64,000 nucleotides of DNA, taken from an uncultured Ruminococcus sp. Its GTDB lineage: Bacteria > Bacillota > Clostridia > Monoglobales > Monoglobaceae. Shown here one piece after another: positions 38,899 through 44,574 of the stretch. The DNA lies in the NCBI GenBank assembly GCA_902760955.1, contig CACWIG010000003.1, forward strand, positions 1 to 64,000, read 5' to 3'. The translations under genes were made by a program, and so were the position numbers. Numbering within the stretch: position 1 is the stretch's first letter; each line of letters opens with the position of its first letter. Below the pieces are notes generated by a model. The model had not been told where the DNA came from. It searched no databases and worked only from the letters and a program-made list of their open reading frames with translations.

Positions 38899-39053
38899 AT
38901 CGTTCACTTTGTTCACGATGAAATCCAAACAAGTTTGGATGAAATCCTCGCTATACTCGGTTGAAATTAAATCCGTCTTTTATCCGCCGCAGGCGATTTC
39001 ATCTGCGTAGCAGATTTCATCCACGAAGTAGATTTCTTCCGTCACAAGACGGA
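38899..39053. repeat. Cluster of small hairpins separated by GAAAT/ATTTC spacers
   Basis: Successive hairpins include ATCCAAAC-AA-GTTTGGAT (38923-38940), ATCCGCC-GCA-GGCGAT (~38982-38997), ATCTGC-GTA-GCAGAT (39001-39015) and TCCGTC-ACAA-GACGGA (39038-39053), each bounded by ATGAAAT or ATTTCAT. The ~500-bp gap between the half-transporter and the integrase holds this cluster, the tRNA terminator and the attachment site, but no gene. Similar arrays are familiar from other gut Clostridia. Confidence 0.6.
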
Positions 39054-39061
39054 TTTAGTTG

Positions 39062-39092: not shown

Positions 39093-39109
39093 TGGTCGGA
39101 GTGACTGGA
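39093..39109 (-). other. Prophage attachment site: duplicated tRNA 3' end (probably tRNA-Pro)
   Basis: The minus strand reads TCCAGTCACTCCGACCA. From its 3' end this gives CCA, discriminator A, seven acceptor bases CACTCCG and T-stem bases CCAGT. Upstream the T-loop sequence is lost, so only the 3' end of a tRNA is present. The implied 5' acceptor CGGAGTG suits tRNA-Pro. Next to an integrase gene this is the expected left attachment site; the intact tRNA should lie at the far prophage end outside the window. Confidence 0.7.
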
Positions 39110-41010: not shown

Positions 41011-41601
41011 CTACCTTGCACGCTCAAAAACTCGACCGTTGTTTATATCGTAGTTGTTGTTATTATAATCTTCCTCGCTGCATTCTGTAAGTATGATTTT
41101 GCCTTGCTCAAATAGCAAAATATATATCATTTTTGTTGGCTTGGCAAAATCAGAATATACTGTACCTTTTGCAACTGCAACATCCATATCGGTAAATGTT
41201 CCCATAAGTATGTCGTATCCGAAACCGGGCTTGTCGTACATATATGAAAATGTGATATTCCTATCATCTGCATCATATATTGCGAGCCTAAAATCAAAAC
41301 CAAGAGAACCACCCTTGCTGTTATAAGCACCTATATATGATTTATATGATGATGTATCTCTGTTGTTGATAAAAATTGTATCATCATGGAAATCTACACT
41401 AAAACTATTATCAAGTGCATCCGATATATCTCTTAGCTTAAAATAGGTGCTGTCGTTTATATTATATCCTTTTATATCCTTATCCACATAGTTTACCCTT
41501 ATAGGATAAGGATTTTCATATATATTTAGTTCATTTATTCCAAAAGCAATTGTCCCGGACAATATGATTCCGGTCAATAGACCAATTACAAATCTTTTCA
41601 T
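41011..41601 (-). CDS. Secreted/anchored protein with a stalk (copper amine oxidase N-terminal-like) domain
   Basis: The 196-aa protein has an N-terminal hydrophobic signal segment (residues 4-22). A small beta/alpha domain follows (~32-85) whose pattern YxLRDI-ALD...DD-TIFIN (here YFKLRDISDALD) is that of the stalk domain often called copper amine oxidase N-terminal-like. The rest is unrecognised. It lies leftward of the K+ channel and repressor genes and may be expressed in the lysogen. RBS GAGGT is upstream. Confidence 0.6.
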   Translation of the reverse strand: MKRFVIGLLTGIILSGTIAFGINELNIYENPYPIRVNYVDKDIKGYNINDSTYFKLRDISDALDNSFSVDFHDDTIFINNRDTSSYKSYIGAYNSKGGSLGFDFRLAIYDADDRNITFSYMYDKPGFGYDILMGTFTDMDVAVAKGTVYSDFAKPTKMIYILLFEQGKIILTECSEEDYNNNNYDINNGRVFERAR

Positions 41602-41667: not shown

Positions 41668-42369
41668 TTACTTCTTTTTATTAACTTCATTCATATAGCC
41701 AGCAGTGATTATGCCGGTGGGGAGTGCAACAATTGCAATGCCCATAAAAGAAGATAGCATACTCACAATCCTACCTACATCAGATGTTGGATATATATCT
41801 CCGTAACCAACAGTAGTTAAAGTAACAACTGCCCAGTATATGGCATCAAAGAAGTTATCAAAAGTATTTGGCTCAACTTGGAATAGGATGAGTGCGGACA
41901 GAATTATGTATCCGCCAGCTAATACACATACGGCAAACAATGCTTTTTTTTCTCTTTTTATTACAGAAATAATTAAATTAAAACTTTTTGAATACCTGAG
42001 TAGACGAAGCGTTCTGAACGCTTTACCAAGTCTGAAAAGTTTTAACATCCTTAGGCCGTTGTTTAAAAGCGTAAACGCAGGAAGTATAGAGAGTAAATCT
42101 ATTATCGCAAATATTCCAAAAGGATATCGTATAAATGCCATTTTTGAGTTATCATATTTGAAATCAGCAGTACACCAGCGAAGAATATAGTCTATAATAA
42201 ATATAATAACTGTTATATTATTTACCCATTCAAATATAAAATTTGTCTGTTTAAAGAAAAGGGGTATAATGCTCAAAATTATACATATAAGCATAAATCG
42301 GTCGTAGATTAGGCTTATTATGTCGTTGGTCTCGGCAATTTCAATTACATCATAAATTCGCTTTCGCAC
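41668..42369 (-). CDS. Voltage-gated potassium channel homologue encoded by the prophage
   Basis: This 233-aa protein has six predicted helices. The S4 segment carries a positive residue at every third position (Arg107, Lys110, Arg113, Lys116, Arg119, Arg122, Arg125). The pore loop holds the K+ selectivity filter TVGYGD (186-191) between S5 and S6. No cytoplasmic RCK domain is present. It starts at GTG 42369, 18 bp after the repressor stop, so it is probably cotranscribed with the repressor and expressed in the lysogen. A superinfection-exclusion or membrane-potential role is inference. Confidence 0.88.
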   Translation of the reverse strand: MRKRIYDVIEIAETNDIISLIYDRFMLICIILSIIPLFFKQTNFIFEWVNNITVIIFIIDYILRWCTADFKYDNSKMAFIRYPFGIFAIIDLLSILPAFTLLNNGLRMLKLFRLGKAFRTLRLLRYSKSFNLIISVIKREKKALFAVCVLAGGYIILSALILFQVEPNTFDNFFDAIYWAVVTLTTVGYGDIYPTSDVGRIVSMLSSFMGIAIVALPTGIITAGYMNEVNKKK

Positions 42370-42387
42370 ATTATCATCTTCTTTTGT

Positions 42388-43017
42388 TTATTTTCTTTTA
42401 CTTCGTCTAAGCTCCCAAAATACACCTTTTACTTCTACAGGAAGTTCGATGCACTCTTGACGGGTGAAAAATCGGCTCTCATAAGACGGATTTAGAGGTT
42501 TAATTAATATTCCGTTTGACATCTTTTCCACTCTTTTAAAAGTCCAATCATCACCATTGATAGCAACAGCACAGTCTTCATTGTTTTCGCAATCACTTTG
42601 ACGTAAAAATATAATGATGTCGCCATTACGATACTCGGGTTCCATACTGTCGCCTTTTATTTTCAATCCAAAAAACTCTTTGCCGCCAATAGTCCATTCT
42701 TCAGGTGCTTCCTCATAATCAATGATATCTTCTATTGCTTCCATAGGTACACCTGCAGGAATATACCCGTATATCGGAATTTTAATAACACGTGAGGTAT
42801 TGTAGCTAAATGGCTCAGCGTTTGTGGAATACATAAGATCATTAACGGTAACATTAAGTATTTCAGCTATTTTTTCTAATGTTTTTGCTCTGGGACTATT
42901 AGTCCCATTTTCCCACATACCAACAGTGCTCTGCTTAACACCTACAAGTTGAGCTAATTGTTCTTGTGTTAATCCTTGGTGCTCTCTGTATTTTGGCAAG
43001 TTTAATCTTAAAGACAT
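42388..43017 (-). CDS. CI/LexA-like phage repressor (XRE HTH plus S24 peptidase)
   Basis: The 209-aa repressor has an N-terminal helix-turn-helix (residues 7-60: LTQEQLAQLVGVKQSTVGMWENG). A C-terminal S24 domain follows, with cleavage site Ala88-Gly89, Ser124 (GDSMEP) and Lys161 (TFKRV). It should hold the prophage silent and self-cleave upon RecA activation. Three ATCA-N7-TGAT operators lie in the divergent control region. RBS GGAGGTGG precedes the ATG. Confidence 0.94.
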   Translation of the reverse strand: MSLRLNLPKYREHQGLTQEQLAQLVGVKQSTVGMWENGTNSPRAKTLEKIAEILNVTVNDLMYSTNAEPFSYNTSRVIKIPIYGYIPAGVPMEAIEDIIDYEEAPEEWTIGGKEFFGLKIKGDSMEPEYRNGDIIIFLRQSDCENNEDCAVAINGDDWTFKRVEKMSNGILIKPLNPSYESRFFTRQECIELPVEVKGVFWELRRSKRK

Positions 43018-43036
43018 TTTTCCACCTCCATACTTT

Positions 43037-43065
43037 AGAATATCACTAAAAATGATTTTTGTAAA
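43037..43065 (-). promoter_or_regulatory. Promoter of the repressor (lysogeny) operon
   Basis: On the minus strand TTTACA (43065-43060), 17 bp, TATTCT (43042-43037). Operator 1 occupies the spacer. Confidence 0.65.
43042..43056. promoter_or_regulatory. Phage operator 1 (ATCA-N7-TGAT)
   Basis: ATCACTAAAAATGAT is a dyad with 4-bp arms between the -10 and -35 boxes of the repressor promoter. Confidence 0.6.
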
Positions 43066-43091
43066 TATAAATAAAAAATATTTAGAAAAAT

Positions 43092-43106
43092 ATCATCTAA
43101 AATGTT
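43092..43106. promoter_or_regulatory. Phage operator 2 (ATCA-N7-TGTT)
   Basis: ATCATCTAAAATGTT matches operators 1 and 3 with one arm change and overlaps the start of the rightward -35 box. Confidence 0.55.
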
Positions 43107-43133
43107 GACAAACAAAATTTATTGTGCTATTAT
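43105..43133 (+). promoter_or_regulatory. Rightward early promoter
   Basis: TTGACA (43105-43110), 17 bp, TATTAT (43128-43133), firing toward the Cro-like gene. Confidence 0.72.
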
Positions 43134-43134
43134 A

Positions 43135-43149
43135 ATCATAATAAATGAT
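43135..43149. promoter_or_regulatory. Phage operator 3 (ATCA-N7-TGAT)
   Basis: ATCATAATAAATGAT lies at the start of transcription of the rightward promoter and shares the dyad of operators 1 and 2. Confidence 0.6.
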
Positions 43150-43175
43150 AATGATGGGAGGCTGAACTATTTAAA

Positions 43176-43358
43176 ATGATTAAGATACGCGAGTTGCGAC
43201 AAAAAGTTGGAATTACTCAGCTTGAGTTATCGGAGAGGTTAAGAGTAGGACAAAGTACTGTTGCAATGTGGGAAAATGGCAGTAATATGCCGAGGTCGGA
43301 CAAGTTGCCGGAACTTGCAAAAGCACTTAAGTGTGAAGTATCGGATTTATTTGAATGA
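43176..43358 (+). CDS. Cro-like XRE-family regulator
   Basis: This 60-aa protein is a single helix-turn-helix domain (ITQLELSERLRVGQSTVAMWENG). Its recognition region is very similar to that of the repressor (KQSTVGMWENG versus GQSTVAMWENG), so both should read the same operators. It is the first gene of the rightward transcript. RBS GGGAGG is about 13 bases before the ATG. Confidence 0.85.
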   Translation: MIKIRELRQKVGITQLELSERLRVGQSTVAMWENGSNMPRSDKLPELAKALKCEVSDLFE

Positions 43359-43685: not shown

Positions 43686-43913
43686 ATGACAAAACTCGAA
43701 AAAATTATTTATTTGATAGTTCACGGGTTGGTATTTACGGGAATATATTTCATATTATCGGCAGTTGAAGGATATTCGGTTGGACTATGGCTATGGCGGC
43801 AGGCGTTGATATTGGGCTTAAGCGGAGTCGCTATGGTAAGTATTTTTGGTTATGCAGTGTTACACATAAATACAATTTTAGATATGCGGAGGAAAGAAAA
43901 TGAAAGGATATAA
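43686..43913 (+). CDS. Small phage membrane protein with two helices
   Basis: The 75-aa protein has two predicted transmembrane helices (~8-26 and 38-60) and a charged tail. AAAGGAGG lies 8 bases upstream. It overlaps the next gene by 14 bases. Function is unknown. Confidence 0.5.
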   Translation: MTKLEKIIYLIVHGLVFTGIYFILSAVEGYSVGLWLWRQALILGLSGVAMVSIFGYAVLHINTILDMRRKENERI

Positions 43914-44574
43914 GGCGTTTAGTAAAGGGATGATTTGCAGAGGTAAACAGTATGCCGAAAATACTGTATTTGAAGAAGAAAACGCAGAAATATGCAACAG
44001 CGGTATGCACTTCTGCAAAAGTCCGCTTGGGGTTCTTAACTATTATCCGTTGGTAGACGAAAATTGTAATGTTTCGGAATTTGCAGAGGTTGAAGCGTTA
44101 GACAAATGCAAAACAGATGACAATGAGAAGTATTGTACAAAAAAATTAAAAATTGGTAAAAAAATAAGTTTTGAGCAATTAGTGCAAGCAAGTGTAAATT
44201 TTGAATATGAAAATGGACCGAAAGATACTAAAGTTAAAACCACAAGTAAAGACAATGCACGGATAGGCTCAAGCGGTAATTATGCACAGATAGGCTCAAG
44301 CGGTAATTATGCACAGATAGGCTCAAGCGGTAATTATGCACAGATAGGCTCAAGTGGTGATTATTCTGTTATATGCTGTGCCGGGGATAACTCAAAAGTA
44401 AAAGCTAAAAAAGGCAGTTGGATTACACTTGCGGAATGGGAGTACAGTGAAGAAAAGAACGCATATATACCGATATGTGTTAAAACCGAACAGGTTGACG
44501 GCGAGAAAATTAAAGAAGATACGTTCTATACACTTAAAAACGGAGAGTTTGTTGAAGCTTATGCAGAGGAATAA
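43900..44574 (+). CDS. Phage protein with a DUF7666-like N-terminus and 9-residue tandem repeats
   Basis: This 224-aa protein begins YKAFSKGMICRGKQY and continues with a conserved GMHFCKSP segment, as in DUF7666-type phage proteins. Residues ~120-155 are four tandem AxIGSSGNY repeats that probably form one side of a small beta-helix. It then has a compact C-terminal domain (ITLAEWEYSEEKNAYIP). Function is unknown. The DNA of the repeat is almost perfect, so copy number may vary. Confidence 0.65.
   Translation: MKGYKAFSKGMICRGKQYAENTVFEEENAEICNSGMHFCKSPLGVLNYYPLVDENCNVSEFAEVEALDKCKTDDNEKYCTKKLKIGKKISFEQLVQASVNFEYENGPKDTKVKTTSKDNARIGSSGNYAQIGSSGNYAQIGSSGNYAQIGSSGDYSVICCAGDNSKVKAKKGSWITLAEWEYSEEKNAYIPICVKTEQVDGEKIKEDTFYTLKNGEFVEAYAEE
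44257..44364 (+). repeat. 27-bp tandem repeat, four copies, in-frame
   Basis: The unit begins GCACAGATAGGCTCAAGC and continues to AATTAT. Copies start at 44257, 44284, 44311 and 44338. The first differs by one base, the last by two. The near-identity indicates recent expansion. Confidence 0.9.

Follow-up and report, generated by a model that had tools for sequence, protein, structure and literature searches.

The window (the whole 64,000-nucleotide stretch of DNA analyzed here) carries the gene of a Kv-type voltage-gated K+ channel in the lysogeny region of a prophage (Table 1). The order on the minus strand is an S24-type cI repressor, the channel, a second gene encoding the protein P0003, and a tyrosine integrase. 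We refer to the space between the repressor and the integrase as the slot. The prophage spans 36.8 kb and is located at a tRNA-Pro gene, as the second copy of its att core (contig positions 75896-75912) is the 3' end of tRNA-Pro(GGG). Terminase, portal and major head protein genes were identified between the att cores by PHROG matches, and tail and endolysin-type genes, assigned by eye, are also present. Read from these genes, the prophage looks whole. The channel therefore has the placement expected of a moron gene, between a cI repressor and an integrase on one strand of an apparently complete prophage. Just beyond the left att site, a Gut-1 RNA (Rfam RF01706) was detected at 38991-39061 of the window, minus strand, with 51.3 bits against a gathering threshold of 50. 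An early-region protein of the prophage, encoded at 43900-44574 of the window on the plus strand, contains tandem IGSSGNYAQ repeats.

Table 1. Features of the repressor-channel-integrase region (positions in the window).
Feature	Position	Strand	Evidence or remark
att core TGGTCGGAGTGACTGGA, 17 bp	39093..39109	.	recurs at contig 75896-75912
Tyrosine integrase gene, 381 aa	39266..40411	-	Pfam, PHROG; end of the repressor-channel-integrase slot
P0003 gene, 196 aa, hydrophobic segment at N-terminus, no family match	41011..41601	-	second gene of the slot
Kv-type voltage-gated K+ channel gene, 233 aa, 6 TM	41668..42369	-	Pfam, PDB matches, S4/filter, AF2 model, Foldseek
Gap from repressor stop to channel GTG, 18 nt	42370..42387	-	sequence; terminator scan
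cI/LexA-type phage repressor gene (HTH_3 + Peptidase_S24), 209 aa	42388..43017	-	Pfam; phrog_4 1.6e-44
Divergent repressor/cro control region	43018..43175	.	promoter-like sites 43065-43037 minus and 43105-43133 plus (consensus matches only; region total hardly above shuffled sequences)
Cro-like HTH protein gene, 60 aa, divergent from repressor	43176..43358	+	

The initial annotation placed the start of the channel gene 18 nt past the repressor stop on the same strand, and the coordinates bear this out; the start codon is GTG. No terminator-like match was found on their strand between the two genes. Since the gap is so short and lacks such a match, the gene layout suggests that the lysogen probably expresses the channel.

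The channel matches the Pfam families Ion_trans (PF00520, E=1.9e-28) and Ion_trans_2 (PF07885, E=7.9e-17), and its best sequence matches in the PDB are KCNQ2/5, Kv1-Kv4, Shaker, KvAP and MlotiK1. An AF2 model of the channel, built from relatives (mean pLDDT 82.5, pTM 0.66) has the helical layout of a 6-TM channel, with six TM helices and the re-entrant pore helix of Kv channels. Foldseek comparison of this model with the PDB returned Kv channels with E-values down to 8.3e-9; among the matches listed, TMq reaches 0.72 (Kv4.2), and Kv2.1 and KCNQ are also present. The S4 segment (RMLKLFRLGKAFRTLRLLRYSK) has Lys or Arg at every third residue, giving eight charges in register, and the selectivity filter reads TTVGYGD, conforming to the T(V/I)GYGD pattern of Kv channels; the charge ladder and filter reported in the initial annotation are thus indeed intact. 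Four residues (Phe57, Asp60, Arg64 and Asp91) are invariant or nearly so among relatives and, judged by their position, are the S2/S3 partners of S4, so that the S4 charges and their acidic partners are both in place. A cytoplasmic signalling domain is absent from this protein and from most of its relatives. The protein looks like a complete Kv-type channel, and is predicted to be functional from its intact sensor and filter. Its best match among phage families is PHROG 7872 (E=2.6e-38), a family of phage proteins without assigned function, which it matches almost end to end.

Scans of viral contigs, together with the window, gave 123 phage or viral loci with relatives of the channel, which fall into three subfamilies. 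Subfamily A includes the window channel, subfamily B is found in Lactobacillus phage PLE2 and in Enterococcus and Listeria phage contigs, and subfamily C comprises a further type of channel found in the window's family. We counted a channel as slot-borne if the gene of a cI-like HTH protein (85 aa or longer) was present no more than 2.5 kb upstream and an integrase gene no more than 3 kb downstream, both on the strand of the channel; these genes were called with profiles made from seed genes and spot-checked with Pfam. The arrangement was found in 87 of the 123 loci. Some contigs are represented twice, as two scans fetched the same place, and counts by cluster are therefore safer: at 90% identity the arrangement is present in 38 of 65 clusters, and at 70% in 31 of 54. 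The survey of other prophages for repressor-channel pairs proposed in the initial annotation has thus revealed a recurrent order: HTH repressor, in some cases ImmA, channel and integrase. The repressor and channel genes overlap or abut in L004, L005, L025 and L213, and the deposited annotations of Dulem virus 33 and PLE2 give the identical gene order. In 19 of the 65 clusters the channel has neither neighbor, some being cut by contig ends and others lying elsewhere in the phage (L002/L026/L031 and L003). As a rough baseline, inferred and not a formal control, only the channel and P0003 occupy the slot of the window prophage, so a gene inserted at random would seldom end up in it; by this reasoning, the repressor-channel order recurs beyond chance.

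The integrase of the window phage retrieved no close relatives of this phage from the viral contigs. Two further channel matches, in Acinetobacter phage MD-2021a (which resembles host DNA) and Halorubrum Humcor1, were set aside because their contexts differ. A limited literature search for papers on prophage K+ channels gave nothing relevant, which does not prove their absence. Several other genes were observed near channels. An HSDR_N (PD-(D/E)XK-type) gene is located just upstream of the Kv channel at two distant loci (L129:3576-4646 and L059:4834-5928), the second of which also has a GmrSD gene nearby; two loci are too few to regard HSDR_N and the channel as a system. A small basic protein (core approximately VRKPSxKKSxKARTTGKxKR...YGKKGxGxIKxP) occurs beside the channel or within the slot in L036, L044, L136 and L264, and the L044 copy, the only one checked, matched no Pfam family. 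The gene of a DUF4236 protein adjoins that of the channel at both phage-borne and chromosomal loci (L010, L037 and L041 by Pfam, L216 by eye).

The slot exchanges its contents. In one set of prophages with a 94-100% identical integrase, some carry the channel there and others carry different genes, mostly for lipoproteins and small membrane proteins. A search of genomes from the family of the window's host gave a sister prophage in the host's genus (repressor 75% and integrase 66% identical to those of the window), where a membrane-anchored DEDDh exonuclease replaces both the channel and P0003. Its gene (L263:1496-2242, minus strand) follows immediately downstream of the repressor; the protein has an N-terminal hydrophobic stretch, an RNase_T match (3.1e-36), and PADLOC matches to DEDDh and PDC-S48. 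Such an anchored exonuclease would suit an attack on incoming DNA and is a candidate exclusion gene. On a viral contig, an AbiD/Abi_2 gene (L025:6840-7913, plus strand; PADLOC AbiD E=9e-61) separates the Kv channel gene from that of the integrase. A motif, NQDGGAHxD, is common to two slot proteins, L230:4025-4822 (plus strand) and PLE2 gp25 (L006:6138-6899), one of which occupies the usual place of the channel while the other follows it; no Pfam family was found for the L230 protein. Morons are commonly located next to the repressor (PMC7067206). The recurrence, the exchange with envelope genes and an exonuclease, the AbiD neighbor and the precedents discussed below support the view that this is an exclusion or moron slot. 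As it carries morons generally, position alone suggests expression in the lysogen, and not defense.

The close homologues of the channel in Clostridia are ordinary chromosomal genes without fixed neighbors. In a tree of subfamily A, slot-borne channels are interspersed with chromosomal ones, and the starred branches force at least six changes, an uncertain number given the quick search, the short sequences and groups that were set after the survey. A single clade of slot-borne channels was rejected (AU p=3.5e-6), as was a single clade of all phage-borne channels (AU p=1.2e-4). The change counts do not tell whether phages gained the channels or lost them to chromosomes. On this tree, Kv channels appear to have been recruited into the slot repeatedly and independently. 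The prophage channels are under purifying selection: dN/dS is ∼0.04-0.15 in the pairs with enough change (for example, dN 0.05 and dS 0.71 for L137/L140, 0.03 and 0.72 for L147/L160, and 0.013 and 0.187 for L019/L020), whereas several other pairs were too close or saturated. TTxGYGD is retained in 116 of 120 channels and at least six S4 charges in register in 115 of 120, and the exceptions include truncated ORFs.

The initial annotation also suggested that the adjacent protein, described as a stalk-domain protein, belongs to the same module. This could not be upheld. P0003 has no Pfam match even at E<0.1 and is not conserved with the channel, and we reject it as a constant partner. L016 is the only other channel locus with a clear stalk-domain gene nearby, and the product of that gene matches P0003 weakly (E=0.003, in a single comparison). 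No RexA-like sensor or other conserved partner gene was found in the slot, which at several loci consists of the repressor, channel and integrase genes only.

We favor superinfection exclusion as the function of the channel, based on the exchange of slot contents, the AbiD neighbor and the literature precedents, and consider the chances about even that it is a moron expressed in the lysogen, whose product excludes superinfecting phages or aborts their infection from the membrane, in the manner of RexB or the putative channel CarolAnn gp43. Read-through from the repressor promoter would supply the channel in the lysogen, where it would assemble into a tetrameric, K+-selective, voltage-gated pore, as its S4, S2/S3 partners, filter and fold suggest. 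The pore would be mostly shut at resting potential and so impose little cost. Depolarization of the membrane by an incoming phage, during DNA injection or takeover, would then open the pore; K+ would leave, the potential would be pinned near the K+ equilibrium (E_K), and DNA entry or macromolecular synthesis might stall. The initial idea, drawn from chlorella-virus channels that depolarize host membranes, is here refined on grounds of general physiology: a K+-selective pore brings the membrane potential to E_K, and the cell would be depolarized only at sufficient external K+. The role of the channel need not be specific to phages, as its close homologues are chromosomal Clostridia genes in varied contexts.

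The main rival is a role in host fitness, in which the channel would aid the stress, osmotic, biofilm or sporulation behavior of the lysogen, as YugO-type channels of hosts do, and would have no action on other phages. We regard this as possible, though less probable than exclusion. A normal cellular job is plausible since the nearest homologues are chromosomal channels of Clostridia; lysogenic conversion genes are typical of the repressor-integrase slot, and a study of gut phages counts the K+ channel gene yugO among phage-carried sporulation genes (PMC10294663). However, a membrane exonuclease, lipoproteins and other envelope genes, and not metabolic genes, take the place of the channel in the slot, and AbiD shares the slot with it; recurrence in hosts as different as Clostridia, Lactobacillus and Enterococcus also argues for a phage-related pressure, although neither point is decisive. 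We consider it improbable that the channel tunes phage decisions, by coupling membrane potential to lysogeny or by helping to depolarize the cell at induction or lysis. The closeness of the channel gene to the repressor gene (18 nt in the window, and overlap or abutment in L004, L005 and L025) and the S24-type repressor, which ties the operon to stress induction, would fit such a role, but the operon is expected to be off during lytic growth, a cytoplasmic signalling domain is lacking in the window protein and in most relatives, and a role in lysis would favor the holin/endolysin cluster, where only a minority of the channels (L002/L026/L031) is located. Least probable, and already disfavored, is a passenger without selected function in the prophage, gathered by a slot that merely collects host genes; repeated recruitment from host-like channels and variable slot contents would agree with it, whereas the purifying selection between prophage copies, the intact sensor and filter, and the return of one channel family to the same slot argue against it.

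Superinfection exclusion, the reading that we favor, could extend beyond this prophage. We put forward, tentatively and with less confidence than for the window channel itself, that Kv channels have been taken up into the repressor-integrase slot by temperate Firmicutes phages, several times and independently, as a one-gene exclusion device. Its voltage sensor would itself register the disturbance that an arriving phage causes in the membrane. If so, complete Kv channels would be recurrent phage accessory genes and a minimal, one-gene form of electrical infection sensing. Exclusion of the RexB type would gain a tractable form, as much is known of how Kv channels are built, select K+ and gate, and many natural channel variants would be on offer for testing. 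A role would also be suggested for PHROG 7872.

KvAP, MlotiK1 and the chromosomal Kv channels of Clostridia share the fold, S4 and filter of the prophage channel and are homologous to it by sequence and structure searches. Their genes are chromosomal, whereas that of the window channel is in a prophage lysogeny operon. No defense model in PADLOC matches the channel, and this comparison thus assigns it to no described defense or exclusion protein. The Kcv channels of chlorella viruses are 2-TM proteins without a voltage sensor that have been linked to depolarization and exclusion. The initial annotation drew this parallel, which holds at best at the level of function, both being K+ channels encoded by viruses. 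It fails for molecular type, as Kcv is short, lacks the sensor and acts at infection, in contrast to a 6-TM channel encoded in a lysogeny operon. A fold search of BFVD with the channel gave mostly short, pore-only viral K+ channels as best matches, none at E<=0.001.

The rexAB genes are located behind lambda cI, and bstA is a further precedent for an exclusion or moron slot. In the cI-rexA-rexB operon, as in the window, the gene of a channel-type membrane protein follows that of the repressor on one strand and is predicted to be expressed in the lysogen; RexAB has been associated with depolarization (PMC11436027). However, RexB is small, is not related to the window protein and acts together with RexA, while the window protein is a Kv channel of six TM helices that contains a voltage sensor and lacks a RexA-like partner, and its role in exclusion is a proposal. 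The lipoprotein Ltp, from the lysogeny module of Streptococcus phages, blocks DNA injection (PMC3952083). It is likewise an envelope protein of a Firmicutes phage lysogeny module and is expressed in the prophage, but it is a surface lipoprotein and not a channel (PMC3952083). In Gordonia phage CarolAnn, gp43 and gp44 are cotranscribed with the repressor and defend against other phages (PMC6426606). CarolAnn gp43 is a 4-TM protein outside the K+ channel family, with a partner that matches DUF4747; like the window channel, however, it is a putative ion channel linked to an immunity repressor, and in CarolAnn the defense has been shown (PMC6426606).
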